Positions 8,046-48,130 of a DNA stretch of 64,000 bases are shown here, one piece after another. The stretch is from Capitulum mitella (lineage: Eukaryota; Arthropoda; Thecostraca; Pollicipedomorpha; Pollicipedidae): positions 11,444,095-11,508,094 of the forward strand of contig CP099842.1 of NCBI GenBank assembly GCA_030062745.1. Reading direction: 5' to 3'. The number at the start of each line of letters is the position of its first letter. Position 1 is the stretch's first letter. Made by a program: the position numbers and the translations under genes. The notes below the pieces were generated by a model, which saw only the letters and a list, made by a program, of their open reading frames with translations, made no database searches and was not told the origin of the DNA.

Positions 8046-8282
8046 GGACGCGGCTTTTATTTATTTGAGAGGTATCAAAGAGATGCACCAAGGTCAAATG
8101 CCCCGCCCCCGTCAGTAGCTGGTTCAGCTACGGCCCTCCCAACGAGTGAATCTGAGCTTTTGGACAAATGGTAGGATTCACTCGTTGGGAGGGCCGTAGC
8201 TGAACCAGCCACTGACGGGGGGTGGGGCATTTGACCTTGGTGCGTCTCTTTGATACCTCTCAAATAAATAAAAGCCGCGTCC
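8046..8282. repeat. Long near-perfect inverted repeat (about 107-bp arms, 22-bp loop)
   Basis: The left arm (8046-8152) starts GGACGCGGCTTTTATTTATT and the right arm (8175-8282) is its reverse complement with only about three differences. The loop (8153-8174) carries GCTTTTGGACAAATGGTAGG. Nearly the same 20-mer, with one change, stands directly before the left arm at 8021-8041. The right arm runs without a break into the end of the family C element that follows, so the arms are the terminal part of that element duplicated in inverted orientation. The high arm identity, against the divergence of neighbouring repeats, points to a recent event. A fold-back during replication or template switching is the simplest inferred origin. 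Confidence 0.9.
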
Positions 8283-9376
8283 TGAAATGTTCACTGCCTT
8301 TTCTTACCTAAATTGTGCGCCTACGGACGGAAATGTCGAAACAAGGTCATGTTAGCCCATGTCTTGACAACGTTATAGCGATAACCATGTTTTGCGATTT
8401 GATGTCCTATTTTACTTTGCCTCTATACTGTCAGTTTTTTTTTACAAAGAATGGTAACTGTGACCTACACTGCATATCAGCATTACCTGAGAGTTTCTTA
8501 TGGAGCATCCCTGACCCCATGCTGGTCATTCTAGGTCGAATAAGGATATTCCATTTTCCTGGTTCAACGAGAATACGTTTAAGATAAGTTTCCGAATAAA
8601 CAAATTTTAGATACAACCAGGTCGATTTACGAATTTCCCTGCAACATATGCAGCAGTTTTTTGTAGCTTGACCATAGGCGGTTTTATTGGTTTTATACAG
8701 ATTTCAGCCAAGCAAGTCAACTGGTCACTTCCGTTTGGCGCTCTGGATGACCGGTATGAAAATCTCTGCTTTGGTAACGTTGTGCAACATTCTGTTTGAC
8801 TTGTAGGGCTATCCAGAGATGCCAGACGTCGGTCACCAGCGTGATCGTGACACTGCGAGTTTGAAAGTACAAAATGTTATATCACTGCACGGCCACGGTA
8901 ATTTGGTTCATTTCAGGTTCTTTTTCTTGTGCCTCAAGGTGGCACTGACACTGTGCCCCCAGCTGACTAACTTTCCGTGTCAAATGGGCCAGAAGACATG
9001 TATTGCATGATCCTAGCCCAGCCTTTGACCTTGACCTTGGATGGCCTTGGCTCATTTGCCGCTCAGAAGATGAGATCAAACTTCCAGACATAATGTCATG
9101 CAAACTTTGGTTTCGGTCTGCTATTCTATGCGATTAGGCAACTTTGGGAAAGGGCCACTTTTGGGTGTCTGACCTCACATATGACATCATCATTGACCCA
9201 AAAGTAGAAAAAATGCATATGTCACAGGATCGCACGGTTCGGTGCTGTTTAATACCGTTTGAATCAGCTGAATCGGGCCATTGGTTCTCGAAACAGACGG
9301 GGAGGGGGGGGGGGGCGTTAAATGCCCCAGTCAATGGAAGGTGACAAAATACCCCAGTCAATACCGGGTTATAAAC
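8283..9376 (-). mobile_element. Family C element, minus orientation
   Basis: Reverse-complemented, this segment follows the same order as the copies at 19746 and 40463. It begins TATAACCCGGTATTGACTGG, then a GC-rich block with a run of G, CGAGAACCAATGG, GATGATGTCATATGTGAGG, CATGACATTATG, CAAGGTCAAGGTCAAAGG, ACCGGTCATCCAGAG and the TTCAGGACGCGG end. It is non-autonomous, with no transposase frame. The TTAA at the 5' end has mutated to TATAA. The 3' end leads straight into the inverted repeat 8046-8282. Confidence 0.8.
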
Positions 9377-10569: not shown

Positions 10570-10990
10570 AAATTTAGGGTCGCTGGCGTTCGTTAACAGA
10601 GGAACAAAAACGCTACCAGTAACTCCTTGGCTAAATACAAATCGTTTTCAAAAGCTAAGACTGCATAAGGTGTGTTTCGTTGCATAACCGTCATTGCAAA
10701 AAAAACACGGGAAAAACGTCCACCGGGTTTGCTTTCCTTTCACTGAGTTTCCCGACTCTTCTTGGTAAGTGTAGATACATCCGGAACCGTAACTGAAAGC
10801 GGCTCGACAGAAGAGCACTCAAATTGTTTGTTCCAGATACAATCAAACATTGAAATGAAACAATGCTTTCTGTTTTTTGCATTTTGCGGATTGCTGCTTG
10901 AACAGGAAAGGGTGCAAACATCCATCTAGAGTCGCATGTCTTAGGTCCATCAGGTTTGACAGGTATCAACGAGTTGTTTTCACCTACTTT
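10570..10990. other. Unassigned DNA
   Basis: About 420 bases between the family K copy and the TTAA that opens module J. Short open frames only, no repeat partner recognised. Confidence 0.5.
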
Positions 10991-11356
10991 TTAATCCGCG
11001 CACGACCGTCGGTCGGCGACGATCACGCCCGACTGAGAACGGGGCAGTTGGCCGCCCCCCTCTAACTCATGAACAGCTGGTTGCACGATAAAAATAAGCA
11101 CACCGGTGACAAGCTTGTGACGAGTAGAGCTCGAAACTGGTCTCATTTTTTAGGTTTAGATAATATGTAAGTAATTTACATCCTATATATGTTTTCTCAT
11201 AGCCGACTGCATGAGACCGAGAAACGGCCTGAATCTCATGGGCTGTGATTAATAACGCATAGGGAAAGGCACCAGCGCACAAGTAAAGGTCCGCAGATGC
11301 CGATACACATCTAATTTCTCGGATTTGTTCGATATATACGCCGAAACTTTGAGTTA
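10991..11356 (+). mobile_element. Module J of a TTAA-jointed composite element
   Basis: Starts at TTAA (10991-10994) followed by TCCGCGCACGACCGTCGGTC and ends ACTTTGAGTTAA. An inverted copy (J') lies at 15429-15796 with roughly 80 percent similarity by eye. Together they act as about 365-bp terminal inverted repeats around module I. Read on the minus strand, the module has an open frame (part of 11067-11549) whose translation stays similar to the frame in J', with shared blocks such as LLTYYL and EKTYIG. That likeness may only reflect nucleotide similarity. Confidence 0.8.
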
Positions 11357-12370
11357 ACCCGCCCCGACTGGCGGGGGCAATTGACCGCGCCCCCTGAGGT
11401 TTTTCTGGGATTGCGAGAGAACGAACAAACACAGAGCACAACACTTTGTGTACGTTTTGCTTGATTATTTTTACACTTTGTGTAGAAGTTTTGACCTCAG
11501 GCCAGGTCAGGTGCCTGACGTAGGTCAGGTCAGACGTACCAATGTCCAAAAAAGTTTAGCGCTCTGTAACTTTTTCGCAAAACAAGATATCACAATAATA
11601 CTTTCAGGGATTAGTGACCTTCATAGATGCAACAAATCTGCTATCTCAGATTTTTCGGAATTTTTCGGGTCATTGGCCTAAGGTCAAGCCCATTTTTGAG
11701 ATTTGTCGTCGTTTTTTTCGGAAATTGACGAAATATTTCATAACATTTTTAGTGTGGAATGAAGCAGACGTTAACTACCGTCATTCGACAAAGTATCAAT
11801 TACTTCCAGCCATTGACCTGAGGTCAGGTCACGAATAACTGTTGTGAGCCAAAATGTACCAACGCCAAAATCAACGATGAATTGCTCAGAATGGTAAAGA
11901 AATGGCAGAACTGGCTTGCACAGACGTAGGGATGCACCGGATCGGGATTTTTGTAATCCGGCCGGATACCGGATATGCCGGATCGGGTGCTGGATATCCG
12001 GCCGGATATCCGGCCGGATACCGGATATTATGGATAACTATTTTTATTTGATATTTGTTGCTGGAAAATGAGACGAAAAATGACAGCGCTGGAAAAGAAA
12101 GGTCTGAAAAACTGGAAAATAACCTCGCAATAACTCTGTATCCTTCAGAGTTATTGCGAGGTTTCCGCATGTTTCATTCTAAAAAGAGAACAACTAAAGA
12201 ACACAGCGATCATAGCGTACATCACCGATCACCATCTCTGTCTGAAGGCAAAGGGCAAAGGCTCCAAAATGCGCAGAATGCCATTACAGCGCCTTGGTAG
12301 ACCTCAGATATCTGGCTTGATAAGCATTATGTACAAATACTAAGGTGCGTCCACTGAAGTACATTGTCCT

Positions 12371-13593
12371 TTAACCCTATTCCCGGAGGGCTAGACGGTA
12401 TGGCCGATTCCCGGCAGGGGGGGGCGGATTCGGCCCCCCCCCTGAGATCTCGAGAACTACTTATCCGATTTCATCGCAACAAACGGCAATCGATTTGCCG
12501 TGACGTGAACTACATTTTGATAAAAAGAAATTTTCAAAATTTTGAAATTTGTGGATACAGGGGGGCAAAAATGTCAAAATGGGGGGTACTTTTTGACTTC
12601 TTATAACTCCGTTGTTTATGGACCGATTTCGATGAAACTGGCATCAATCGAGAGATTATGGATAGGGCTTTTACCATGGGTATGCAAATTTGAAATTTTG
12701 AGAAAATTCATGGGCGTTCACAGGGTTTCAAAAATAGGGGGATTAGTTTTCCAATAACGGAATGAACAAAAGAGGCCAAAACACTTTTTTAGCTTCTGCT
12801 AGTCATGTTATGCTAAAGAAGTACAAATCGCATTACAATGTTTGTATAATGTTAGCATAGGCGGTGCCAGGGACATAAAAAAGGGGGAACTGTCATGGTC
12901 ACACGTTTCTCAGATCAACTTGTGACCTTTGACCTTAAATGACCTCCAGTGACCTTGGGGTCACCTGGAATGATGTCGTGTGCATTCAATATTATCTGTA
13001 AACGTTTTTAATCGATTAAATTCACTCTATTCCAAAAAATTCATTTTTTGGCTTTTGCGATATAGGGTACGCGCACTGACATTTTAGGTCATAGCTCCGT
13101 GACCTGACCTGATATCAAGCTGAAACTTGGTACACAAGTAGAGGGGATCTTTCTACGTCATATATATTCCGGGTTTGGCATTTGAAAAAACGGCGCCGAA
13201 ATTATTGTGAAAAAACAAATTTTGACTTTTGACCTTGACCTGACCTGGTAAAGTGACCTCAGATAAACAAAATTACATATGCACATTGCCCAACTATTTA
13301 GCTATATATTCATATAAAGTTTTAAGTTCTATCTTAAAAACTCTGTTTTTGGCAGACATTTTCCTTTTACCCTCAAGATGGCCAAAAATGACCTGAGGTG
13401 CCTCCCAAAAACGTTGCCTGGCTCCGCCCCTGAGCAAAATAGAATTTCGAAATTTTGTCACGGCGCGTAGAAGGAATAGCTAGGAAAAGTCACCAAGTTT
13501 CGTGAAGCTGCGTCAGAAAGCCTGGAATTGGCAAGCAAAAAACCCGAGGGGGGGGGCGGATTCCGCCCCCCCCCCTGCCGGGAATAGGGTTAA
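12371..13593 (+). mobile_element. Family A element, full-length copy A1
   Basis: TTAACCCTATTCCCGG at 12371 is matched by its exact reverse complement CCGGGAATAGGGTTAA ending at 13593, giving 16-bp ends that include the TTAA. Inside each end a GC-rich palindromic stretch carries a run of G or C. The 1.22-kb interior contains CAACAAACGGCAATCGATTT, a GTTAGCATAGGCGGTGCCAG block, TTTGACCTTGACCTGACCTG and CTGGCTCCGCCCCTGAG. TTAA duplication with CCC ends is typical of piggyBac-type transposition; no transposase frame is present. Four more copies lie in this window (18190-18480, 44327-44979, 49844-51048, 57080-58224). Confidence 0.9.
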
Positions 13594-13595
13594 CC

Positions 13596-13757
13596 AGGGG
13601 CGCAATCAGGGATTTTTTGAGGAGGGGGCCGGAGCCCAGTGTGAGCTGAAATCATACGAAGACCGCCTGCTGGGAAGACGATGTGTAATGCTTTCACAAA
13701 AAATGTGGGTCTAAGGAGAAAGTCCGGGCCCCCGGGCCCGTCTTTGGCTGCGCCAAT
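13596..13757. mobile_element. Small MITE-like piece next to A1
   Basis: CAGGGGCGCAATCAGGGATT at 13596 and CTTTGGCTGCGCC near 13757 form weak inverted ends around about 130 bases. The CAGGGGCG start resembles the ends of small hAT-like or Chapaev-like MITEs in animals. Only one copy is seen, and the ends match poorly, so the call is tentative. Confidence 0.3.
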
Positions 13758-13761
13758 ACCC

Positions 13762-14665
13762 TTAACACTTGCCGGTATGGGACCTTCTGCATAAGGCGGA
13801 CGTAGAGGGGAGAGGGAGGTTGGTACGGTCCCCCCAGCCATTTCAACACCTTGCGTCCTAGAGTGTCGCGGAAAAAACAGTGTGTTCCACGTGACGAGAT
13901 CTCACGACTGGCATCCCTTCTTAAGGTCTTAGGTTAACGGATGATTTTCCACATCGGGTCAAATGTCAAAAATTGGCAGAAAGTGGTACTTTCTGAGTTA
14001 AGTGCAAATGAACGCCAAAGAATAAATGATGATGAAACGGAACGGATACCATAATGTCCGTCAATCAATTATGAGTCTCTCTGTACACCACATGATTGTA
14101 TTTAACCCCTGGAGTCCGATCCAGGCCACGCTAGGCCAATCCTTGTCAAGCGGGATCGTCAGCTTCAATGCGTTCTCGGAACTGTAGAAGCATTTTTTGT
14201 ACACAGTTAAAGATGCTCAAGTCAAATGTAGTATCTCAATGAACAAACACTATTGTCAAATAACATATAAGGGTCACCTTAGGTTACCCAAGGTCATCTG
14301 AATCCAGTGACCTACGGTGACCTCGATTTAGCTGAAAATCGTAACATAGATACCTTAAAAGCGTTTTTCGAGTTGAGATCCAAAACAAAGTCGAATTTTA
14401 GGCATGTCCTCATATTGTGGACCCATCATTCCGTGGCCGACGCCGCTCTGCCCGTCGTAGCAAAAGTCAGGCGTCCGTTGCATTGCGCCCTCTTTAGATG
14501 AAATAAAGGATAAACTGCACCAAATTTATACCATTCGATTCCTTTCAACTTCAGGAATCCGAATATATAGGTTGTTTTGCAATACCTATTTCCTATCGCA
14601 TTCCCAAAGATAAAAATAACGTGTTTCTCGTCGTACCTTATGACCACACGACATGAGCTCATGAC
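13762..14665 (+). mobile_element. Family G repeat, copy G1
   Basis: Begins TTAACACTTGCCGGTATGGG and shares a long colinear stretch with 22238-23072. Shared marks include CCTTCTGCAT, GTCGCGGAAAAA, GTGACGAGATCT, AATGAACGCCAAAGAA, GATGAAACGGAACGGATA, GAATATATAGGTTG and the CCTATCGCATTCC end. No coding frame is conserved between the two copies. G1 lies inside the hAT element and G2 does not, so G moved or was captured independently. A run of C with CACCACCAAACC follows at 14699-14725. Confidence 0.75.
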
Positions 14666-15428
14666 CCTCGGAAAACCTCAGCGGGGTTGCACCATTCCGC
14701 CCCCCCCCCCCCCTCACCACCAAACCCCTAAGAGGATTCATGAATTTGTACAAGAGTATCTCAGACAAATAAAAATGTTTGGAAAATAGGAGGATGCGCG
14801 ACGAAATGGTCGGCTGAGCATATGCTGGCTGTTATTACACGTTGAGCATGAGTCCAATCCTTGCAAATAATGCCTCAAGCGTTTTGAACTAAGATGAAAA
14901 AGTAGTGCTTCAGTCAGACCCTGGAACTGTCAGACACATCGACAGTGTAATATAGCAAGGCATGTTGCTCCTGAAACGGTTTTATAGACAGACGTAAGAA
15001 CGTCTCGATTGTACACCGCAAGGCCAAATATCCGGCAATATCCGGCCGGATCATGGAAATATCCGGCCGGATACCGGATACCGGATAATCTCAAATATCC
15101 GGCCGGATATCCGGCCGGACCGGATATCCGGTGCATCCCTACACAGACGTAAGTAATACCAGGAACCTCAAAAAGTTTGCAAAAATTGCATATTTTGGAA
15201 AAAACAGGTTCTCGCGAATAAAGCTCCGCCAGTTGTGTAGATTGCTAGCTAATGAATTTTTACACAATTTAAGCATGAAAAACCATCAAAAGAACCACTA
15301 AGATCAATAAAATTTACATGGATAGTCTTTTTTCGCCAAAACAAACGACCACTAAAATTAGTTCCCGTCAATTTCTTACTGCGTACGGGTACGGCACACG
15401 CCGACAGCCGACGCAGATTTGCGTGTCT

Positions 15429-15796
15429 TTAACTCAACGTTTCGGCGTATATATTAAACAAGTCCAAGAAATTAGATGTGTATCGGAATTTGCGCACCTT
15501 TACATGTGCGCCAGTGCCTTTACCTATGCGTTATTAGGCACAGCCCTTGAGTTCCAGGCCATTTCTTGGTCTCATGCAATCGGCAGTGAGAAAACATATA
15601 TAGGACGTAAATTGCTTACATACTATCTGAAACTAAACATGAAACCGGTTTCGAGCTCTACTCGTCACAAGCTTTACCACAGCGTGCTTATTTTTGTCGC
15701 GCGACCAACCTTTCGTGAGTTAGAGTAGGGGCGGTCAACTCCCCCTCCCCCCAGTCGAGCGTGGTCGTGGCCGACCGACGGTCGTGCGCGGGTTAA
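15429..15796 (-). mobile_element. Module J', inverted partner of J
   Basis: Starts TTAACTCAACGTTTCGG and ends GACCGACGGTCGTGCGCGGGTTAA, the reverse complement of module J at 10991-11356. A 136-codon open frame on the plus strand spans most of it (15318-15728). Its translation matches the minus-strand frame of J in blocks such as EIRCVS, YAL and KTYIG. There is no known domain. It shares the TTAA at 15793-15796 with module I'. Confidence 0.8.
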
Positions 15797-16628
15797 AGAC
15801 ACGGCAATTTTCGCGCCGGCTGTCGGCGTGCGCCGCAGCCGTACGCAGTAAGAAATTAACGGGAAATAATTTTAGCGTTCCTTTATTTTCGTGACATAAG
15901 CCTATCCATGTAAATTTTATTGATCCTAGTGTTTCTTGTGATGGTTTTTCATGCTTTAATTTGGGAAATATTCATTAGTTAGCAATCTACACAACTGGCG
16001 GAGCTTTATTCGCGAGAGTCTGTTTATTTCCGAAATATGCATTTTTTCAAACTTTTTGAAGTTCTTGGTATTACTTACGCCTGTGCAAGCCAGTTCTGCC
16101 ACTTTCTACCCATTCTGAGTAATTCATCGCTGACGGTGATACATTTTGGCTTACAACAGTTATTCGTGACCTGCCTCAAGTCAATGGCTGGAAGTCATTG
16201 ATACTTTACCCAATGACGGTAACTAGATGTCTGCTTCACTCCACACTAAAAATGTTATGAAATATTTCGTCGGTTTCCGAAAAAACGACGACACGTATTC
16301 AAAATGGGGTTGACAGTACGTCGATGACTCAGAAAATTCCGAAAAATCTGAGATAGTAGATTTGTTGTATCTATCAGGATCACTAATCCCTGAAAGTATT
16401 ATTGTGATATCTTTTTTGCGAAGAAGTTACAGGGCGCTAAACTTTTTTGGACATGGGCCCATTTGACCTGACCTAGGTCAGGCACCTGACCTGACCTGTG
16501 GTCAAAACTTTGACACAAGGTGTAAAAATGATTAAGCAAAAGGTACACAAAGTTTCGTGCCTCTGTTTGTTTGTTCTCTCGCAATCAGGGGGGCGGTCAA
16601 CGGCACCCCCAGTCGGGGGCGGGATAAA
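15793..16628 (-). mobile_element. Module I', inverted second copy of I
   Basis: From TTAAAGACACGGCAATTTTC to the GTCGGGGGCGGGATAAA end, this is the reverse complement of module I with about 80 percent similarity by eye and no hAT insertion. It therefore shows what the empty site looks like around CTGTGCAAGCCAGTTCTGCC (16081 onwards). The terminal TTAA has drifted to ATAAA. At 16466-16499 there is a palindromic run of TGACCT and AGGTCA half-sites. Confidence 0.8.
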
Positions 16629-18189: not shown

Positions 18190-18480
18190 ATCCAGTGTCA
18201 TCGAAATCGATGAAACTGGGTTTCCAAAAACAATGGACTTATAAGAAGTCCAAAAATACCCCTAATTTTGATATTTTTGCCCCCCTGAATCCACGCCTTC
18301 TAAAATTTTGAAGATTTATTTTTGTAAAAATGTAGTTCACGTCATGGCCAATCGATTGCCGTTTCTTGCAATGAAATCGAATGCAATGAATCGAGATCTC
18401 AGGGGGGAGGCCGAATCCGCCGCCCCCCCCCCCCTGCCGGGAATGGACCATACCGTCTAGCCCTCCGGGAATAGGGTTGA
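18190..18480 (-). mobile_element. Family A element, truncated copy A2
   Basis: Only about 290 bases of one end remain. They comprise the stretch equivalent to CTTATAACTCCGTTGTTTATGG, the AAACGGCAATCGATTGGCC motif, the G/C-rich palindromic block with a run of C near 18423-18434, and the terminal CCATACCGTCTAGCCCTCCGGGAATAGGGTTGA (TTAA drifted to TTGA). The interior and the other end are gone. Confidence 0.8.
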
Positions 18481-19745: not shown

Positions 19746-20946
19746 TTAACCCAGCAATGACTGGGGTATTTCGCCACCCTCCCCAGCCACTGGACTGTGG
19801 CAAAATACTCTCCTCCCGTCTGTCTCGACAACCAATAGTTTGATTCGGCTGCTTCAAATCGATAGCGTCAAACCCTGCGGCCCCATGACTTACACATTTC
19901 TTTATTTTGGGATCACTGGTGACGTAACAGGTCAGAACAAACACCAAAAAGGTGATCATTTTTTCCAGAGTCGCCTAATAACAATGATGAGCAGACCGGG
20001 ACTGAAGTTGGCGTTGCGATATGTTCCTGACAGCTTAATCTCATATTCTAAATGACACCTATGCGAGTTATAAAAGGTCAAGGTCACAGGTTGGAGCAAA
20101 TTTGACTTGTGATAACATGTCATGCAATACATGTTCGCTGGCCCATCTGACACCGAGATTCTAAAGACACTTTCAAAGAGCACTGGGCGCAAAAAAAACT
20201 TGGAATGGTCTTAACTGTCCTGCAAATGCAGCATTGCAACATTTTGTAGTTCCAAATTCGGAATACCAAGAACACGCTAGTGAACTTCATCTGACATCTC
20301 TGGATGGCCCTACAAGTCATTAGTCCCATCTTGCACATTTCCATGGAATGTTGCACAACATTGCAAACGTCAGTATCTCTACACCGGTCATCCGGAACGT
20401 CATACGAATGCCGCCAGCTTATTTGCTAAGCTGCAATCCCCACATATCCACCAAGGATCAAACTACGAGGAAATATTGACATGTGGTAAGAAACTGCTGT
20501 GTAAGCTGCACGTTTAGCTTCTTGCGAGAAAATTTGATAATTCATCTAGACGTACCCAAAAATAAGTTCATTCAGTTCCTAAAATGTGTTTTCACTGAAC
20601 CAGGGGAATAAAAAATACGCATTTGACCTAGGATGACCTAGCATGGGGTCAGATTAGTTCCACATTGAACTCTGAGGTCATGTTGATAAGCAGTGCAACC
20701 CGCAGTCACCATACATTGTAAAAGCATCGATAATACGGCAGTGAAGTAAAACTGAACGTCGAATTGCAAAATATGGCCGTCTTTATGACGTCCCTAAAAC
20801 GTGACTCAAGATGACCTCGTTTCCAAATTTGCGTCAGTATGTGCGCAATTGATGTTACAAAGGCACTGAACGTTCCAGGACGCTGCGTTTAATGTTTTGG
20901 GGGATATCTAAAAAAATGCACCAGAGGGGAGGGACGTTGAACGTTT
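19746..20946 (+). mobile_element. Family C element, near full-length copy
   Basis: Opens TTAACCCAGCAATGACTGGG, with GGTATTTCGCCACC next. It then carries AAATCGATAGC, GGTGACGTAACAGGTC, GTCAAGGTCACAGGTTGG, CATGTCATGCAATAC, ACACCGGTCATCCGGAA, CTGCAATCCCCAC, GCATTTGACCTAGGATGACC and TTTATGACGTCC, and ends near GGGACGTTGAACG. The order matches the copies at 8283-9376 and 40463-41790. There is no conserved coding frame. The 3' end has decayed and a hairpin follows at once. Confidence 0.85.
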
Positions 20947-20988
20947 CCCCATGAGTAGCATGAGTAGCACTACCTGCTACTCATGGGG
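20947..20988. repeat. Perfect 14-bp hairpin
   Basis: CCCCATGAGTAGCA (20947-20960) and TGCTACTCATGGGG (20975-20988) are exact reverse complements around a 14-base loop, which itself repeats TGAGTAGCA. A third partial unit, TACTCATGGGGG, follows at 20991-21002. It sits exactly at the 3' end of the family C element. Confidence 0.75.
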
Positions 20989-20989
20989 A

Positions 20990-22237
20990 ATACTCATGGG
21001 GGTAGACGTGAATCGCCAACAGCGTCAAACGTCGTCTGGGTTTCAGCGATGTTTCTGGGTATCCACGGGTCGGATCGACTCGAAACGCGCCAGCTCAGCG
21101 CAAGAATTGCACGGGAAATTGTGTGGTGCACACCACGTTTCAGTGCTCGAGGCACGTGTCACGCGCAAGCGGTGGCAATGTAAAAAAGTCGTTTTTGAAC
21201 GTTGTTATGAATTGAGTGTGGTGTTGGCCATCCAGATGTCGCAGCGACACGAAAAAACGCTACAGTGTAACTTCGTGGTGCTTGGTACCAAAAGCCCGAC
21301 GGTTCCGGCGCATGATTCGGGCGCAAAGCCACCTGAGAGGAGACGATGCACTCATTCTCGAACCCCTAATCGATACCACTTTAATATCGCATACAGGCTC
21401 TCGACTTTTTGCAATGAAAATCACATCGACGGGTAACCCATTTTATGCTCCATATCAACCCCCAAAATTGTCGTATTTTGTTGTAATTTGTTTGCAATAG
21501 GTCCTTTGGTAAAGTCCTGCATGTCCCAATGCAGATTTGTCCCGAACAAAAATAACATCCCGGCTGCAGTCGCTGGCCCAATTGACACTCAAATAAAATG
21601 AATAGCGCAGGTGTTGTTCAAAACGTAGGACACGTAGCCGAAACTCAGCACATTTCGTTATCAAAGCAGTCCTGGTCTCAGAACGCTGACTTGGCCCCCC
21701 AGGGATGGTGACTCGAAACAGATATTTTCTGAAAAGAAATGCACAGCACATCGCAAAGCGCCCTGTGTGTGCTTAAGAAGAATGTCGGTGTGTCGTTCAT
21801 GGGCAACGAACAAAGTGACTATTTCCCATGTTTTTCGCCTTCTACGTTGGACGTTGAAACATTCACCGAGATCAGATCATCAAAGAGAATGCAAAGTAAA
21901 ATAAAGTGCTCTTAGAAACGAGGTCTGCCATGCACAGGGGGAGTCCAGCAAGGAGCACGTAACCCTTGTTTATGACAATTCGCACCCCAAGGCCCAAAAG
22001 CAGTCAGAGATCCAAACGGTCACATTGCTTCCAGACCGATTCTATTGGAAGCCAGGCAGTCCAGTGATCGTAAACATTTGGACGGAATAAGCGGCAAGCA
22101 CTAGTTTTAATCCATCTCCACAGATTTACAAAACCTACATTATGCCAATGCCCATAGAACAAAATTACCAGGGTCACCTGTTGGATGTAGATGCAGACGT
22201 ACGCGCACATTGGTAGAGAACCCAAGCTGATGTAGTG
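20990..22237. other. Unassigned DNA
   Basis: No gene is supported. A 161-codon frame (20951-21436 plus) starts inside the hairpin repeat and has no recognisable domain. No repeat partner was recognised in this window for 21100-22200. Confidence 0.45.
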
Positions 22238-23072
22238 TTGACCCTCGCCCGTATGGGGCCTTCTGCATGACGCGGACGTGTTGGGAGGGAGGGGGGTTGG
22301 CACGACTCACCCGGGCTTCTACCTGCCCTCTACACACTCGACACACCTGCGCTCTAGAGCGTCGCGGAAAAACAGCGTGTTGCGCGTGACGAGATCTTGC
22401 GGCCTGCATCTCTTTTTAGGGTCTCCGGTCAACAGATGACCTTCCAAGACGGGTCAAAGGTCAAACGGTGGCAGCAAATGTCATTTTTTACAGTTAAAGC
22501 GCAAATGAACGCCAAAGAACAAATGTTGATGAAACGGAACGGATATCATAGTGTTCGCCAATCAATTGTGAGTCTATCTGTACCCCACATAATTGTACTT
22601 TGCCCATGAAGTCCGATCCAGTCATGCTAGATCAGTCCTTGTCAAACCTTGTCCTTGTGGTCGTCGGCTTAGATGCGTTCTCGGATCTTTAGAAGCATTT
22701 TTGTAGATAATAATGGATGCTGAAGTCAAATGTAGCATCTCAGTTAACAGGAAGTATTTTCAAATAACATACAAAGGTTTTCTTATGATGATTCTTATTA
22801 TGGATGTCTTGAAGGCGCTTTTCTAGATAATATCCAACACGAAATCTAATTTTAGGCATGCCGTGGTGTGTAGATTCATCACTCGCGGCGGCTACCTTTT
22901 TGGTGAAACAAGACACAGATTCCACCAAATTTGTATCACTGGGTTCCTTACACCTAAAGCAATCCGAATATATAGGTTGTCTTGCGATATCTATTTCCTA
23001 TCGCATTCCAAAAGGTAAAAAAGAACGTGTTTCCCGCCGTAGTTAATGACTTCAGTTCGCGCCCTCGATAAT
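22238..23072 (+). mobile_element. Family G repeat, copy G2
   Basis: Colinear with G1 (13762-14665). It begins TTGACCCTCGCCCGTATGGG, close to the TTAACCC ends of the other families. It shows CCTTCTGCATGACGCGGACG, TAGAGCGTCGCGGAAAAA, GCGTGACGAGATCTTG, AATGAACGCCAAAGAACAAA, GATGAAACGGAACGGATATC, GAATATATAGGTTGTCTTGC and TCCTATCGCATTCC. It lacks any hAT flanks. No terminal inverted repeat can be defined at the 3' side. Confidence 0.75.
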
Positions 23073-24839
23073 CCAGGCACTAAGAATAAGCCTAATAAAC
23101 CTATAGTCTTATAGAACATTTAATTTGGGTTCGGTCGATATATATACTTTACTGTATTTGTGCACTCCAACCGTCTTACGATGACACGGAGCTGAGACCG
23201 TTGTAAACCGGCCGCGTCGGCGCGCGAAAATGGCTGACATGGCTCCCGTTGACATTATAGCTCGTTACCATGGCAACGTAGGAGAAATTTTTTCGGCATT
23301 ATATGTGGAATGGATGTCCCAGAGACTGCACCAAGTCTCAGATGGATTAAACAGACCGTTTGTAAGTTATACTCGCAAAATCTCGGTTGGATCAAACTCC
23401 CTATACGGGCGAGGGCTAATATGGTTGTTTTTTTCGCAATGTCTCCAGGGCAGACCCAGAACTTTTAAGTAACCTCTCGGAAGCATGCCATTTTTGTTTT
23501 GTCAGGTTTTGTTGATAGATTAAAAGCAATAATAAGCCCAACAGAAGAAATGGCATGACCACACACATATATAGGAAACTCTAAGCCATTGGTGGTTTCA
23601 CAAATCGCTGGGGTCTACAAGGAGTTCAATACATTTGTGTTTCTTGGCTCAGAAATGTCAATTACCAATAGCGGTATCAATGTATGGACGGGCGCGATAA
23701 AAATAAATGACTGAGATGTCTTTGTCAGCCATTGTTTATTATATCAGCCGTAACATTGTTTCTAATGTGAACGATGCGTGTCAACCTTAGTTATGAGCAC
23801 AAACTAAGGTTCTCCTAGATCTGTCTCAATGTGCATCTTTGTTTTGCGACAAAGTTTCACCACACGTAAAAATCAGAAAGTGGTACGCATCGTTCAATGC
23901 CATTCTTAATCATGAGAGTTGGTCAATAGTGAGATCGACTGAGAGTTCATCTTTGGTTTTCTGGACCAGCCCCTACTTTCCTAATGATACTTTTGCCTGT
24001 CAGCATAAATACGGCCAGATCCTAAAGCGCATGAGTTGTGGTTGTTTCATTCGTCCGCCGATAGGGGTCTTATCACTATTTTTTAAAAGTAACGCTTTGG
24101 GTGTTGCCTTCTGTTTTCCCGGATCTCCAGCCGCAGTCACCAAATGTAACGTTATCAAATGTAACAGCATGGATGGTTACAATGCAGCAAATGGTTATGA
24201 TTCTGGTAAATCGAAGACACATCGTAGAGGCCGCAGCCTCGTTGATAAGCGAGTATGCGATTTTCAGTTCACATGGAAGGGTAGCGACCTTTCTTTCTCG
24301 GCAGGGCAATCCTGCTTTGCGTCATCCATACGTATCTGGACTGACGCCGCCCCAAGCGTAGACACAGCACCCTGTTTGAAATCACACCACTCAGTGTACA
24401 CGTTCAGGGTCCATGCAGCAAGCTCTGCACGAGCTCTGCTCCCAAGAAGTCAGCGGAGCCAAACCCTAGTATCAAATTTAAAAAAGCATGCATGTATGCA
24501 GATGTAAATTTGCGACCAATAGCTCAATACTCGGTTAAGACAATTTCTTCGCATGTTTTTTCATTGTGTTACAGCTTTTCACTTGTGCCTGGATGAAAGT
24601 CTGTTGACCCGCAGTTTAACCAAGCGTATTTGTTTTGCCTTGGTTTTCTGGCATAACTTTTGAATGGCGTAATCCAGGACACTTTCCTGAACTGCACCTC
24701 CAGTATCTGTCTTTTCCTTCTGGCATGGCTTGCAAGAATCGCATCAGGGATGGCACAAAAACCACTTCTCACGTCGCACAAGTCGTAAGTAACCACAGGT
24801 GAGGTCAACGATGGCTAGTGCTTAGCTTTGTACAGTGTC
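23073..24839. other. Unassigned DNA with the longest open frame between stops apart from a minisatellite
   Basis: The frame 23839-24507 (plus, 222 codons between stops) starts at TTG, and its first ATG lies well inside, at the MSCGCF segment. The product is cysteine-rich (for example CNVIKCN) but has no signal peptide, repeat or domain that I recognise, and no splice pattern supports it. It may be chance. The rest holds short AT-rich stretches without repeat partners. Confidence 0.4.
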
Positions 24840-25381
24840 GATTTAGCCTATTTTCTGAGAAAATCTAGCAAATTTAACCACCAAAGTATCGCGTACACAA
24901 AACAAAATTGCGGACCGCTTTTGAGCTTCTCGTAAAATTCTGCACAAAAAGATTCAAATAGCTAAAGGTAAGGCCATAACCTTATTTTACCCCGGGACCT
25001 AGATTGACCTCGGGTCACTTCCCGAACTTTTTTTATTTTTCCAGCTTACATTTTGAAAAACTGTTTGCATTGTTCGTCTAGCAAAATGAATTCACTTGAT
25101 ACTACATCAAGCATGTTATGGCCATTCTTGCTCTGTTAATATGTTGCCGCGATGGCCGACAAATAATCGCCAAATGTAGGGCTATGACCAGGCTCGTGAC
25201 GTCATTCCGAACTTTAAGGTCACCAAATGAGAAATGCCTGAGGCTCTGGATACCAGGCCATTGATTATCGTTCGAATCGTGGAAATCGGACCCTTGGTAC
25301 GCCAGATAGATAAGGGCTAAAACAGTTCATTCACCCCAGCAACTGGAAGGTGGCGAAATGCCCCATTCATAGCAGGGTTAA
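24840..25381 (-). mobile_element. Family K element, minus orientation
   Basis: The reverse complement starts GTTAACCCTGCTATGAATGG with GGCATTTCGCCACCTTCC (TTAA at 25378-25381). It contains GGAATGACGTCACGAG, AATGGCCATAACATG and TTTTACGAGAAGCTCAAAAG, in the same order as 9845-10560. No coding frame. The 3' limit is approximate. Confidence 0.6.
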
Positions 25382-30799: not shown

Positions 30800-31310
30800 A
30801 ACCAAACATTGCCTTATCAGCAGCCCTGGCGGAGCGGCCGAGCCGCAGAGCCAACCGCCAGCAAACTAGGCAGGACCAGGCCGGCATCACCAGTTTCTGC
30901 GGCTGCCACTGGAGAGGGAGGGTGTGGCACCACGTGAAGAGTCCCGGCCCCTGTGACGCCAGCTGACGGCTGAGAGCGCTGGGCGACGGGAGAGCTCTGC
31001 GCCGCCGCCGCTGCGCCTCTGCAGCCGGTCTGCAGCGTGCAGAGCCCGCAGAGCCGCCTGCCGAGTCGGGCAATATAGCACCGGCCGACGCCGGCCTGAC
31101 ATGATGCGAGCCGGTTGAGTGGCGGGCCGGCCGGCTCACCGATCGGGCGGGCAGCGGGCTCGGGCGCGATCCTCTGGGCGGGCGGCGGGCTCGGGCGCGA
31201 TCCCCTGGGCGGGCGGCGGGCTCGGGCGCGATCCTCCGCGCGGGCGGCGGGCTCGGGCGCAATCCTCCGGGCCCAAACCGCCGGTCGAGCTCAGTGCCAG
31301 TTCATCGACC
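30800..31310. other. GC-rich island with minisatellite
   Basis: CpG-rich, with many GCCGGC words. Its right part consists of a 31-bp tandem repeat (separate entry). All frames are mostly open for compositional reasons. Confidence 0.6.
31145..31268. repeat. 31-bp minisatellite, 4 units
   Basis: Four direct units start at 31145, 31176, 31207 and 31238. Each reads GGGCGGGCGGCGGGCTCGGG followed by CGCGATCCTCT, with one to four differences per unit. The units stay very similar, so the array is young or homogenised. Confidence 0.95.
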
Positions 31311-32179: not shown

Positions 32180-33420
32180 CGCACGAGGATGGCCGTGCAA
32201 ACGACAACGGCAAGCTCTCACAGACGGCAGGTGGGAGTTGCTGCGGGGGGCAGGTGTCGCCTGCGCAGGCGGCCGTTTTTCCCCAGGCTGATGGTCTCGC
32301 TCGCAGGCGGCAGAGGGCGCCGCTGCCCACACGAGCCGGAGGCGCCGGGCGACACACCGTGGAGCGCCGCATCTCACGGTAGCACGGGCGCTAGACCGGA
32401 ACGAGCAGCCCCCGCCAGCCCGCGCTGCACGGACAGCAGACCTCCTGGCCTGACGGGACGCCATCCCTCGGGGGATGACACGGCTCAGCAGATCCACCGA
32501 GCAGACGACAACAGACGAAAACGGCGGATCCCCGAGAACACAAGACACCGCCTGAGGGAATGACCCGGCGCACGAGCCGCCGCGTCGCGCCGCAGGCTCA
32601 CCAGATCCACGGAGCAGAGGACAGCAGACGAGAACGGCGGATCCCCCGAGAACACAAGACACCGCCTGAGGGGATGACCCGGCGCACGAGCCGCCGACGT
32701 CTACGCGGGAGTGCGGAGCGCTCGGCTAACCGCTCCGCCGATCAGAAGAACGGCCGGCAGTGGTTTTAGATATGACATGGGGCGCCAGTACCGCCTCAGC
32801 GCAAGAGAAAAACCGCCCCCACAGCGCCAAATTATCTCCACCAGGAGCCGCGGCTCTGCTTTGTATGCTAACTGGAGCCCTGGTCAGCGTTGGCGGTGCG
32901 TTTTTGCCGGGCTGCGGCCGTCCACCACCATGACAGGGGTCACTGCTGCGGTCACACTAATTGCTACTAATCCGTTGCCACTTACAGGTCGAGGTGCAAA
33001 AATGTATCGAGATATTTAATGCAGCTGCCGTCCGGCATCCCAGCGCTGGTGTCGGGCAGTAAAAACTGTGGCGCCGACGGCACCGCTGAAAAGTGCCGGG
33101 CAGATGTGTGGCCGCCCAAAATGGGAGACCCTTCCTTTTGTCAGCGGCCATTTTTGCCCCCGGCGCAAAAGTGCGATTCCAGACGCCGCGAAAATTACGG
33201 ATCGCGGAATCTGCGATCGTCTCCGCGATTGAGAGCGACGGACAGCTGAGACGGCTCACGACCGCACCGTCTCAGCACGTTATCAGGGCTGGTCGGACGG
33301 TGGGAACTCTCTGCAGACAGACCTCGGGGGAGCCAGGGCTGGCCGCACGGCCGGTTCCTCATGCCACCGCGAACCGCCCTGTTAATAAACCTGAACAGGG
33401 GCGGGGTTAGCGCCCGCCGC
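32180..33420. other. Large GC-rich island
   Basis: About 1.2 kb of CpG-rich DNA with a tandem duplication (32489-32714). The 32780-33420 part has lower CpG density and includes GGATCGCGGAATCTGCGATC at 33199-33218. Frames are open on both strands without domains. A regulatory or promoter role is possible but not shown. Confidence 0.55.
32489..32714. repeat. Tandem duplication, 113-bp unit
   Basis: Two units start at CAGATCCAC (32489 and 32602) with about 90 percent identity over most of their length, including CGGCGGATCCCC and GAGAACACAAGACACCGCCT. A partial unit, GGGGGATGACACGGCTCAG, precedes the first, so the array once had more than two units. Confidence 0.9.
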
Positions 33421-34959: not shown

Positions 34960-35441
34960 GCATCCGGCGTCCGTGTGACCATGGTCAGCACGGAGCGGGG
35001 CGGGGGCAGTTGGGCGCCTGCAGCCGCACGGTTCCGTTACGGGCTTTCAGCAGGACTGGAGGACGGACGGAGATACTGTGCCGGAGGCGAGCGGTGGGTA
35101 TCGCACCGATCGGCAAACGCTGCGCACGCCGCGCCGCTGCCGCCGTGGAGCGTGCTGGCCCGGAGGGGGCGGGCTGTGCTGCTGGGCTAACCGGACCTGC
35201 TCCGTGGCACCCACGCCCCCCCCCCCCCATGCTGCATGGACGGCCGCGGCGACCCTGGCGCGCTCTTGACATTGGCCAGGCGGATCTGCGGCCGAGTGAA
35301 GGCTGCCCGGTATCCTGGTGCTGCCGGGACGTGGGCCGGTCCAGCCAGTCTCGGGCCGACCAGCTCCCACCGCGACAGCCTGCATGGTGGGGGGAGGGGG
35401 GCGGGGCGCAGGCAGTCTTGGTTTGGCCAACTCCCACCCCG
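34960..35441. other. GC-rich island
   Basis: CpG-rich DNA with runs of C (35216-35228) and G (35390-35400). It leads directly into the 99-bp tandem array. Long open frames on both strands are compositional. Confidence 0.55.
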
Positions 35442-35740
35442 ACGGCCTACACTGAAGGGAGGTGAGAGGGAGCAGGCAGTCTCGGCCCCCAGCTGTGAGG
35501 GCGGGATACCAGGACGGGAACAGGTCACCAGTAGCGCCAGACGGCCTACACTGAAGGGAGGTGGGAGGGAGCAGGCAGTCTCGGTCCCCAGCTGTGAGGG
35601 CGCGGTACCAGGACGGGAACAGGTCAACAGTAGCGCCAGACGGCCTACACTGAGGGGGAGGTGGGAGGGAGCAGGCAGTCTCGGTGCCCAGCTGTGAGGG
35701 CGCGGCACCAGGACGGGAACAGGTCACCAGTACCGTCAGA
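35442..35740. repeat. 99-bp minisatellite, 3 units
   Basis: Units begin ACGGCCTACACTGA at 35442, 35541 and 35640, each containing GGGAGCAGGCAGTCTCGG, CCCAGCTGTGAGGGCG and CCAGGACGGGAACAGGTCA. The 99-base period is a multiple of three, so several frames stay open through the array. This explains the long frames of 257 (minus) and 153 (plus) codons over it, whose products are three imperfect 33-residue repeats. Confidence 0.95.
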
Positions 35741-38700
35741 CGGCAACGCATCGGCACAAGACTGTACTGAATTGCATTATCACCTCTGAGCCGCTTACAG
35801 TGTGCATTGCATTTCACCACTGAGGGTCATTCAGTCCGGAATGTTGTTACAGCCCTGAGCCACATTGTTCGTAATGAAGATGACTGCATGCACACCAGAT
35901 TCAGCAATTCCTTACTGTTCGTCACACTGGAGCACCTAATGATCACCATAAACAATCCAAAAGGTGTCTGATAACTGTGAGGTGGAAGCGTCATGGGCGG
36001 GTGATGTATGATGAAGTTGGTTGTAGATCACGGCTGCTCCAGGGAGAATCGCCTTTTTCCCAACTCATGAATAAATGCAATACTTGTAAACTTGTATGCT
36101 GTCTTGTGGATCGTACACGGACGAGCTGCTTCTTCGCTTTTGTTTTTCCAAGGTGGGTTGACAAGGACTCGTATTCTTTCACTCTTTTTATTCTTATGCG
36201 CGAGGTACAGTGTGCTGTTAGTGGCCAACTGCCCACTTCGCACCACGCTTTCACCCAAGATCATATGCGTGATTGCTTCGTCTGAAAGCAACTTTGACGG
36301 CAAATTTAATTTCTGTCTTTGTCTTTGGACCTTGACAGTTCTTTTTTGACCCGCTACCGAGAACTGACAAGACATTTTATCTGAGAGAGAACTAGGTAAG
36401 CTGTTGAGGTTCCAGGTGGCATAATGTTTTGTAATGTCGCTGGTGCGAAAGGCTGGCCAGTACTCCCATGTTTCTTTTGGTGATCAGGGCGATATCATTG
36501 TACCGGTAGACGTTCTATAAAATGTTCATAATTGTAAGATTGTTTTCCATTTTTTCAAGGACTGAGTACAGATTTCCGAAGGCGATGTTTAAAAATAACG
36601 CAGATTTCGTCGACTTTTAGAACGATGAGCAGGGTCTTGCTGCCGTTCATTTTAAGTAAGGGTAATGGTAATACATCAGTTTCCAATGAATCTGCTTCAG
36701 CTTAGACAAAGGATGAAGACTAGTTTTCTCTCCAGTAACTAGAACATCGCTGTCTTCGTCCTGCTGATAAAATTCCGGTATCCGCGAAATACAAATCAGG
36801 GCCCCTTGCAAACTCTACGAACTGCAATGAGCTCAAAACCGAAAATTATAAAAAAGTCAGCAGTTTTAATGTTTTTTCTTCTGACACGCTGTACAAAGCC
36901 AGTTTCATTCTACGTGCTCTTAAACCATCTGTTATCCGCTATATGACACGGCAGATCATTTTATACCAGAATATGGCACCTGAGAAACCGACAGACACTG
37001 CCACTAAAAGTTTCCTTGGTGAATAAAAAATCATGGTGTAAATGTGTCCGTGCTAGCAACATCTGTAATTTGATCTGATCTGATCTGCAGTGTCGAATTC
37101 GCTGAAGGAAGTTGGCAATTTCCTCATAAAAATGCATGGCATAAACTCTTATAATATAACAAAAATAATCGTTAGCATGAATTCTGAAGACATCTGGTTC
37201 CGTTTTAGACTGTTGGGGTGATTCGGGGAGAGTGAAGAGACCTAGAAAGTTGAATTTCATGTCCTCAGCAAAAACCACCTAACTGGTATGCTTAAATATC
37301 CACACAACTGAAACCAGTATAAAGAGGAAGACAGTGTGTCAAATTAAAAGAGCAGAAGTTTAGTTCGTTTACTACAAAACACTTCAAGATGAGCAACAAA
37401 AAATAATATTTTTCATGTTGCCTTGTCATTTTGCAAAGTACGAAACAAACCATAGGTATGATGGTAGGTGAATATTCAACTTCGGATCATTGCCGGATTA
37501 AAAAAACATTTGTGTATTGCTAATACGTTGTCAGTAGTTTGGTCATTATTTTGTCCATTTTCGTCAGTAATAAATCGTGATATTAATTACAATTAACAGA
37601 TATGGCTTTCAAACAATATCTTTGGAATGCTATGACTACTCAGGGTATCAGGGTAACACAGATATTTCAGTTCCTATTGATACTTTATCGGCATCAACGC
37701 ATTTCTTTGCGAGCGATCTTTATCAAATGTAAGACTGTTGTCAGGAAACAAATGAATCAAATGCAGCCATCATTTCATTACTTGAAATATTTGATAATTC
37801 AAATACTTGAACAACCAATTGATGCGTGCACCTAAGCTCAACGACTTTAACTTAATGCAGACTGAAGTTTGCGGACAAAACGGCGAATTTTGTTGTAGTT
37901 TCTGTATGGAGTGTTCCTCCACGCATTTTCCGCGGATCATGGAGCATTGCTCTGATCTGTTCTTCGCCCGGAAATGCGATATGGGTCATTCCATGTCAGA
38001 CTGCACAAAAACTGACCCGGCCCCCTTCAGTTGTAATGAAATTTGGTACGCTTATAGCACCCACAAAAGCGCCAATCATAAATTTTTCGCCCTGAGTGGC
38101 CTCTGAGGTCAAAGTTACAGGTCATGAAAGGTCACCGATTTTTACAAATATTGCATGGTTTGAATGGTTACAATTCAGTGACAGACTGCCACAGAGATTA
38201 TCGCCATTCGAAACAGGAATGTTCCAGATTTCATAAATAAGTTCGATTTTCGGTAACTCTGGGATGGCCTTCGACCTATCTAAGTCACATGGAACGTTTG
38301 CGATAATAATCATGTTTGCCCACCGTGGTCTCTACGAAAATATATCTCATTGTGTCTCGAAATACCTACAATAAGCGTGGAAAAAGCACTACTGCACAAA
38401 CAGAAACCTTGTTAGCTATCTCAAATTTCGTGTTGCCAAGTGGCGTTTGAGAAATGCGCCCATGAGGCTATCTGACCAACATCGATTGATTTCCTGCTTT
38501 TCGTTTGTCGGATTGCTCTACAATTTAACATGCACGATGTCTTGAGAGCCTGCTGCACGACGGCTGTCTTTTAAATTGCTTCATACGAAAGACCAAAGTT
38601 CATGACATGGCACCCCAACATCAATCAAACCCTACCAACCACATTCGACATACCCGTTCTTCACATTTTGACAGAAGCGTGTCTACCGGATGTTCTTAGG

Positions 38701-40462: not shown

Positions 40463-41790
40463 TGAACCCGGCATTGCCTGGGGTATTTCGCCACATTTCA
40501 TTGGCTGGGGAGACATTCAGCGCCTTCCCCCTTTCGTCTTTCTCGAGAACTAATCGTTTGCTTTGACTGATTCAAACGGCAATCGATGGCCCCGAGCCGT
40601 GAGGTCTTGTGTCATAAGCATTCAACGCCCATGTCACAAGAGGGGGTAACAGCGGAGGGGCAGGGGCGTTCAACGCCCGCGTCTATCTCGAGATTCAATC
40701 GTTCGATTTGGCTGATTCAAACGGCAATCAATAGCGCCGAACCATGCGGTATTGTGACATATACCCTGTTTTTTTTTTTTACGATGGAGTCAATGATGAC
40801 GCCACAGGTAAGGTCAAATACTCAGAAGTGACCCTTTTCTCCAGAGTTGCCTCATCGCACTGAAAAGCAGACCGAGACTGACGTTTGCATGGCAACATGT
40901 CTCCGGTAGCCTGGTTTCATATTCTGAGAGTCATCTGACCCAAGGTCATCAAAAATCAAGGTCACAGGTCTAAGTCAAATTTGACGTCAGTGATAACTAG
41001 CCATAGCAGTGAATGTCTTCTTGGTCCATTTGACACGGAGATTCTCAAAAAGACATTTTCAAAGAGAAATGACACCAATTACGGTGCACATGCAACTTTC
41101 CAACATTTTGCTCTTCCAAACTCGGAGTATCACGAACTGGCCAGTGGACTCCATCTGTCGTTTCCCCATGACCCCTACCAGCTAATTTTGCTCATGTTGC
41201 GCATTTTCATGAAACGCTACACCAAGTTGTAAAGACCGATAAATCCCCACCGGTCATCCAGCGCGTCAAACGGACGTCACCAGTTTACTCGCGAAGCTGC
41301 AATCTGCATGAAACCGTCAAAGATCATTCTACAAAAAGGTTGCATTGCTGCAAGAAACTGCTGCGTAAGTTGTGTGTGCAATATCGCACAAAAGAAATCC
41401 ATAATCTCCCCAACTGTATCCAAAAATCATTTTATTTAGTTTCGTGGCGAAACATATCCTCACTGCACCAGAAAGTGGAAAACGCATACTTGATCTAGAA
41501 TGACCTAACATGAGGTCAGTAGAGTCCTATGTTGAGCTCTTAGGTCATGCTGATACGCAAGGCCAGCCACAATCATCATGCACTGTAAAAGCGCCGACAA
41601 TGCAGCAGCGAAATAAAATCGAACGTCAAATCGCAAAACATGGTAGTCTTTATGACGTCATTAAGACGTGACCTAGCATCACCTCGTTTCCAATTGCTTT
41701 GTCAGTATGTGTACATTTGAAGTAAGAAAGACGCAGAAAATTAAGGGGACGTTAAATCCCCCTCCCCCACCAGTCAATGGCGGTTTGAAA
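40463..41790 (+). mobile_element. Family C element with internal 5' duplication
   Basis: Starts TGAACCCGGCATTGCCTGGG (TTAA drifted to TGAA) and follows the order of the 19746 copy to GGGGACGTTAAATCCCCC and ACCAGTCAATGG near 41784. The 5' segment is present twice. ACGGCAATCGATGGCCCCGA (40578) and ACGGCAATCAATAGCGCCGA (40722) are each preceded by GATTCAA and followed by GTGAGGT/TGCGGTATTGTG-type sequence, with GTTCAACGCCC between. A T run at 40771-40780 is unique to this copy. It directly adjoins the pogo pseudogene. Confidence 0.85.
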
Positions 41791-44326: not shown

Positions 44327-44979
44327 TTAACCCTATTCCCGGCAAGGGGAGGGGTTGAATCCGCCCCCTCGGATTTTTTGCTTGCCAATTCCAAAGTTTT
44401 TGATGCAGCTTCACGAAACTTGCTGACTATTTCTAACCATTCTTTCCACGAACTGCAGTAAAATTTCGTAACTCCATTTTCCTCAGGGGTGGAACCAAGA
44501 AACGTTTTTGGGAGGCACCTCAGGCCATTTTCGGCCCTGTTGAGGGTAAAATGAACATGACTGCCAAAAAAAAGCGTTTTAAGATAGAACCTTAAACTTC
44601 AGATGTAATCCCCTTATTTTTCGAAACCTTTCAAAACCCTGCGAACGCTCATGATTTTTTTTTTTTAATTTCGAATGCAAGGACCAATGGTAAAAGTCCC
44701 ATTCATATTTCCTCGATTTATGCTAATTTTATTAAAATCGGTCCATAAACGATGGAGTTATAACAAGCCCAAAAGTATCTCTCATTTACACTTTTTTACC
44801 CCTATATCCAACCTTTCGAAATTTTGGAAACTTCCTTTTATAAAAATGCAGTTTACGTCATGGCAAACTGATCGCCGTCTGTTGCGATGACATCGGATGT
44901 GTAGTTCTCGGGGACCGAATCACCCCCTCCCCCGCCGGGAATCGGCCATACCGTCTAGCCTTCTGGGAATAAGGTTCAA
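44327..44979 (-). mobile_element. Family A element, internally deleted copy A3
   Basis: TTAACCCTATTCCCGG at 44327 and TCTGGGAATAAGGTTCAA ending at 44979 are the two ends. Both GC-rich subterminal blocks remain. About 550 bases are missing from the middle compared with A1: the CCTTTTACCCTCA part (as GAGGGTAAAATGAAC) is followed closely by the CGAAACCTTTCAAAACCCTG part. Orientation is minus relative to A1. Confidence 0.85.
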
Positions 44980-47299: not shown

Positions 47300-48130
47300 C
47301 CGCAACGCCTAATTAAGACCTTACAGCGGGTTACTGACATTTGCGCAGGGAACGTCATAAATTTCTGTTAGTTGCAAAAGTAAAAAGCCGTACAACGCAC
47401 ACCTCAACAGAAAAATGTAATGTTCGATATGCATTACACGTATCGCACATCCTATGTCGCCTTCCGTGACACAGCCCTCGCACCCTACAGTGATGTAAAA
47501 AATCTGGGCATCATTGTTGACCAAACCCTGTCGTATGGTGTTCCCGTGTCCCACGTCAGCCGCTGCTGCGCAGGCAGCTTGGCCGGCCTCTTCTACGCCT
47601 GCCACCTGATAACGGACGGCGTCAGCACTACGATGGTCATGGTCCTTCTCTTCTGCACGTCAGATACTGCATTTCGGTCTGTGCCAATGACACTAAAAAG
47701 AACATGGACAGAATTCAAAGTCTCGGACTTTGGCGCTCGGGTTATCTTTGGACCACGTATCCGACCTGCGAGAGAGGCTGGGCTGGATGACCGCACAATA
47801 ACTAGCTGTCACCAGCATACTAAGCCTGGCGCACAAGGTTACGGTCTGCGGTGTGCCGGGCTCGACCATCATCCGAGCGGATACCTCTATACGAGCGCTG
47901 AGCACGAGACAAGACCATCTGCTCTCCGTGCCCCGCTCGAGGACCGAGGCCGGTAAGCAGCGCTTCTCCGCCAGAGTGCCTGTTACATGCAAGGAGCTCC
48001 CGCCCGACTCACGGGACTAAGACCGTGGACATTCGCACGCGCCGCAAGGCGGTATTCTCTAGATCGGCCGCCGAACTAGGTCGCTGCCGGAAATGCGCGC
48101 GTGCGGGTGTGTCGGCCAGTCTGTTCTTGT
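47300..48130 (+). pseudogene. Non-LTR retrotransposon reverse transcriptase C-terminal remnant
   Basis: The plus strand carries the region downstream of the catalytic core of a CR1/L2-like polymerase. VTDICAGNVINF is the thumb-side helix, followed after stops by DVKNLGIIVDQTLSYGVPVS and HVSRCCAGSLAGLFYACHLI. FGARVIFGPR comes next, then in another frame RLGWMTAQ-stop-LAVTSILSLAHKV, TRQDHLLSVPRSRTEAGKQR and FSARVPVTCKELPPDSRD ending at a TAA (48018-48020). At least two frameshifts and three stops are present. The YADD-bearing part was not found, so the copy is 5'-truncated, as is usual for such elements. Confidence 0.88.

Follow-up and report, generated by a model that had tools for sequence, protein, structure and literature searches.

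How do four alternating inverted modules come to follow each other with nothing but a single TTAA at each joint? The array that raises this question lies in the window, the 64,000-nucleotide stretch of the Capitulum mitella genome that we analysed, and an earlier note on this DNA had described it as modules J, I, J' and I', of which J' and I' were said to be inverted copies of J and I.

Self-BLAST bore out these relationships, at 84-87% identity. J (10990-11357) matches J' (15429-15797) in inverted orientation with 84.6% identity (E 1.8e-111), and I matches I' in two inverted pieces, 11354-11928 with 16076-16627 (84.1%, E 2.3e-173) and 15142-15433 with 15792-16085 (87.5%, E 8e-97). Both pairs of matches are far above chance level. 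The order in the window is J (10991-11357), I (11354-11926 plus 15150-15432), J' (15429-15796) and I' (15793-16627). The single shared TTAA that had been placed near 11353, 15429 and 15793 is indeed found at all three junctions, exact in each case (11354-11357, 15429-15432 and 15793-15796). The outermost left boundary is a TTAA as well (10991-10994) and the outermost right one reads ATAA (16624-16627), one base off; TTAA is retained at four of the five boundaries of the array. The stretch that had been set aside for self-alignment, 11927-15149, corresponds to an element (11927-15141) that we take to be hAT-like from its 8-bp duplication and its end sequence, together with that duplication.

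J and I' as one unit across the genome

We searched the genome (477 Mb, 16 contigs) with J as query, obtained 5315 first-look candidates and scored the 40 best. The sample used below consists of the 39 best-scoring J loci outside the window, and is thus a best-scoring and not a random one. In 39 of 39 loci J is directly followed by I', 37 times by the strict rule and twice (L038 and L040) with an 11-bp diverged joint, an orientation opposite to that of J and I in the window. An adjacent J-I unit occurs at none of these 39 loci, and the junction of the J end with TTAACC, looked for by pattern in the same loci and in the window, is present in the window only. The mobile unit, hereafter K, is J-TTAA-I', about 1.2 kb long and without a recognised protein (the ORFs overlapping the modules, of 149 and 162 codons, have no Pfam family match), and it stands by itself elsewhere in the genome, at all 39 loci. 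This contradicts the proposal that J and I are separate, independently mobile modules.

Inspection of the ends covered 22 K copies from the first 20 loci, the 19 later loci being left out. A TTAA stands at the left end of all 22 copies, at the right end of 20 and at the joint of 17, and the letters flanking it differ. The two copies in which the right-hand TTAA is missing resemble in this the outer K of the window (see below), which has ATAA there. The earlier note had named, as a refuting observation, genome copies in which J and I are always joined into a single unit that lacks the intervening TTAA: they are one unit, but the joint TTAA is absent from five of the 22 copies.

One K inside another

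Since the unit is J-I' in the other loci, we parse J-I-J'-I' as J-[I-J']-I', which is almost certainly an inverted K sitting inside the internal TTAA of a second K. The features of the locus, with the evidence for each, are:

10991..11357, forward strand: J, the left part of the outer K, which opens with the terminal TTAA (10991-10994) and closes with the internal one (11354-11357), now the insertion site (sequence, alignment with the inner copy, genome copies)
15793..16627, forward strand: I', the right part of the outer K, from the duplicated TTAA (15793-15796) to ATAA (16624-16627) (sequence, alignment with the inner copy, genome copies)
11354..15796, reverse strand: the inner K, inverted (I then J'), with the TTAA duplication 11354-11357/15793-15796, split by the hAT-like element (sequence, alignment, divergence, genome copies)
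15429..15432, no strand: internal TTAA of the inner K, at the position equivalent to the outer K site that holds the inner K (ungapped alignment, TTAA in 17 of 22 genome copies inspected)
11927..15141, no strand: hAT-like element inside the inner K, inserted later, with ends TAGGGATGCACCGGAT (17-bp perfect terminal match, 8-bp duplication CACAGACG at 11919-11926 and 15142-15149)
12371..13593, forward strand: K2a, a copy of the K2 element with TTAA on both sides and ends CCCTATTCCCGG, nested in the hAT-like element (self-BLAST, end analysis)

Only one way of cutting the array gives every piece a CCC end on both sides, and it puts I' after J, with J running from the CCC end and I' to the GGG end. 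When the outer flanks are joined (10991-11353 to 15793 onward), they align with the inner K over its whole length, the joint TTAA included without a gap, and the alignment stops at the terminal TTAA on either side. Both signs of a nested self-insertion are therefore present, a target duplication around the inner K and outer flanks that join into an uninterrupted copy; the internal TTAA lets K act as its own target. Between the outer and the inner K, 54 of 362 J sites and 106 of 827 I sites are different (K2P 0.169 for J and 0.141 for I; Fisher p 0.36), and the whole alignment contains 13 gap runs. This similar divergence of J and I is as expected for two copies of one unit. CpG decay, considered as a way to polarise the ages of the inner and outer K, gave no signal (10 vs 11).

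The inverted ends of 365 bp in JIJ' and of roughly 850 bp in IJ'I' are present as had been described, and yet they are not the termini of mobile units. If JIJ' were one element with 365-bp inverted ends adjoining an older I', one would account for its TTAA and (T/C)CCG at both start and finish, and for the pairing of J with J' as inverted ends at offset 0. However, I' would be left as a fragment without a CCC end at its left, J is accompanied by I' in 39 of 39 other loci and never by the rest of a JIJ', and the two ends would be of the same type, while piggyBac in cells needs two unlike ends, according to the portion of PMC7351741 used here. We give this reading next to no credence. An element IJ'I' with inverted ends of about 850 bp adjoining a J, consistent with the CCCG ends and the TTAA/ATAA flanks, is just as improbable, for it leaves a solo J, and I and I' surround a J' at none of the 39 loci. 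The same loci contradict both long-TIR elements.

The alternative between seamless insertion at TTAA and a dimer-like transposition product, both put forward by the earlier note, is settled in favour of the former. A dimer-like or self-directed product of one copy, by autointegration or local duplication, has a precedent in piggyBac, which autointegrates in cells at internal TTAA; the same source, in the part at hand, gives deletion or inversion circles as the products of one-copy autointegration, not two full copies (PMC3952818). We compared both copies with the column majority of the 22 inspected ones and found distances of 0.063 for the outer and 0.083 for the inner K, within the range of the others (0.053-0.220). 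The two have four non-majority sites in common, as against a mean of 5.5 in the other 231 pairs, 181 of which share at least four. With no excess of such sites they were not one copy shortly before; inner and outer K are no closer than other pairs, so there was no dimer, and a chance of about nil is all that we would grant it. Outer and inner K are ordinary family members and not recent products of one another.

We have very little doubt that the whole array arose when an abundant non-autonomous element of piggyBac-like type inserted into a copy of itself, and that it is no new element type. What had been taken for an undescribed kind of construction comes down to the ordinary nesting of a transposon of about 1.2 kb. 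The locus is a clean worked example of how a series of inverted modules that alternate and join seamlessly at TTAA can mimic a new composite element, although a TTAA-specific element needs to insert only once into a copy of its own family to produce it.

What we observe directly is the structure, the site in both its filled and its empty form, and K as a genomic unit; the history behind them would run as follows. In this account K is a piggyBac-like element of about 1.2 kb, non-autonomous and moving by cut and paste, which duplicates TTAA and by chance has a TTAA at its J/I' joint. A transposase presumably supplied in trans would carry a K from elsewhere, in inverted orientation, into the joint TTAA of a K already in place, and the TTAA would be duplicated on either side, giving J-TTAA-[I-TTAA-J']-TTAA-I'. 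The hAT-like element, which itself contains a K2 element, would later enter the inner K. The nesting thus suggests the order outer K, inner K, hAT-like element and K2a, the last steps being deduced from nesting alone.

Placement among TTAA-duplicating transposons

From its sequence, K looks like a piggyBac-like, non-autonomous element. It resembles piggyBac in its TTAA duplication, its CCC...GGG ends and a subterminal repeat offset by 27-28 bp (28 in Trichoplusia ni piggyBac), and differs from it in that its tips match over about 5 bp only (CCCGC), its internal repeat is not significantly palindromic and no transposase was recognised among the window ORFs. TTAA target-site duplication is seen at both ends of 20 of the 22 inspected copies and of the inner K, the outer K having TTAA and ATAA. 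The left tip TTAACCCGCGC is exact in 18 of the 22; L015 and L025b have TTAACCCGCGC with a later change, and L012b and L023 differ by a base or two. Right tips are mostly CGGG|TTAA.

A stretch common to both ends of K, CGACTGGGGG...GTTGACCGCCCC, lies deeper at the J end, by 27 bp in the outer and 28 bp in the inner copy. The score of this internal repeat was reached by none of 500 shuffles in either K copy, and by 0, 2 and 1 in the three complete K2 copies, K2a-c. Of 24 K copies, 14 have an offset of 27 and one an offset of 28, and the other nine have different values (0 in L025b). The window has 21 pairs of TTAA(C/T)CC ends, and in four of the seven that score best the offset is 28 in one direction or the other; random TTAA end pairs reached a score of at least 22 with an offset of 27-29 in 0 of 3962 cases. 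A palindromic-like form of the internal repeat (CRD site) was not significant at the K ends, where the value found was attained in 385, 204, 132 and 34 of 500 shuffles; at K2a the repeat is palindromic-like, with 2 and 0 of 500.

The published piggyBac ends offer a direct comparison. T. ni piggyBac is described, in the section of PMC2533014 used, as having 19-bp repeats whose distances inward from the terminal repeats, 3 bp and 31 bp, differ by 28, and bp 34-63 of its right end resemble bp 7-35 of its left end in the corresponding part of PMC7351741. The offset pattern of about 28 bp does not appear in piggyBat, as far as the portion consulted of PMC11707139 goes, and therefore is not general to the piggyBac superfamily.

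Among the 20 window ORFs no transposase was recognised, Pfam giving no match at E<=0.1 except a weak sub-threshold hit to Toxin_21. Neither Rfam families nor tRNA genes were found in the window, and exact K and K2 patterns had 0 matches in viral_contigs and genome_contigs, as expected for viral and prokaryotic sets.

Sola3 is another superfamily that duplicates TTAA. That K belongs to it or to Kolobok rather than to piggyBac strikes us as very unlikely. Kolobok also makes TTAA duplications, in the part of PMC9587614 on which we draw, and no transposase is linked to K here; however, the 27-28 bp end asymmetry of K matches piggyBac, and Kolobok ends are given there as 5'-RR...YY-3', against CCC...GGG in K. 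By this end type Kolobok itself was ruled out.

Two published systems come close to the array. Coral CMITE-IN, in the excerpt of PMC2872659 used, arose when a CMITE entered a TTAA in the interior of a second element flanked by TTAA; CMITEs are, like K, piggyBac-like MITEs with TTAA duplications, but measure about 100 bp where K has about 1.2 kb, and their target was a different element and not one of the same family. The composite-like KolobokP elements share with the array the TTAA duplications and a multi-module build with self-joined repeats, whereas the long direct repeats on either side of a coding interior and the RR...YY ends given for them in that part of PMC9587614 are both lacking in K. 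In the literature that we searched by title or abstract, no piggyBac-like MITE nested in itself came up.

Further K-in-K insertions and other repeats of the window

K has internal TTAAs at about positions 365 (the joint), 426, 525 and 875. The left junction that should result when a K enters the joint TTAA of a second K, J-end|TTAA|CCCGC, has 12 exact occurrences genome-wide, and the reversed-pattern control has none. Seven of the 12 continue as a J end (direct), four, window included, as an I end (inverted) and one as neither; at the 11 places outside the window the evidence concerns the left-hand side only. At one further locus, L037, a complete K in direct orientation lies within I' of a second K and is bordered by TTAA at either end. 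The TTAA used there differs from the site in the window, and the reference copy reads otherwise at that position. Two of the 40 loci (window included) thus contain a self-nested K, and they differ both in the TTAA used and in the orientation of the inserted copy. Under a rough model of random insertion, about 5 events would be expected at the joint TTAA if there are 5315 copies and about 18 if there are 10,000, against the 12 found by an exact-match count that misses diverged junctions. Since the expectation depends on the K copy number, we claim no insertion preference for the joint TTAA. It seems improbable to us that the TTAA in the K body is a site at which the family inserts again and again, building self-nested stacks that might move as larger composites.

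A second family flanked by TTAA, K2, is unrelated to K and has CCCTATTCCCGG ends; its 28-bp end offset is present in three of three complete copies (12371-13593, 49844-51048 and 57080-58224); partial copies lie at 44327-44976 and 18223-18478. At least two families of this genome, K and K2, keep an asymmetry of 27-28 bp like that of T. ni piggyBac, which could help to find the source of the transposase. Two TTAACCC ends separated by 5.6 kb (19746-25381) match each other in inverted orientation over 37 bp, without offset; they may belong to a third TTAA element, one whose ends are symmetric. A part of the hAT-like element, 13762-14644, recurs at 22238-23050 in two pieces with 76-83% identity, so that this element probably contains a further repeat or has one in common with other DNA.

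The ORF at 47384-47953 (190 codons) is the one with the sub-threshold Toxin_21 hit (E 0.0049) and has no PDB match; by eye it resembles a LINE-type reverse transcriptase. A repeat of about 1.05 kb is present in three diverged copies with 64-69% identity (8238-9301, 19817-20870 and 40680-41738), and tandem arrays rich in GC, with units of 99, 31 and 114 bp, lie at 35438-35744, 31144-31272 and 32482-32701, respectively, in the GC-rich part of the window.
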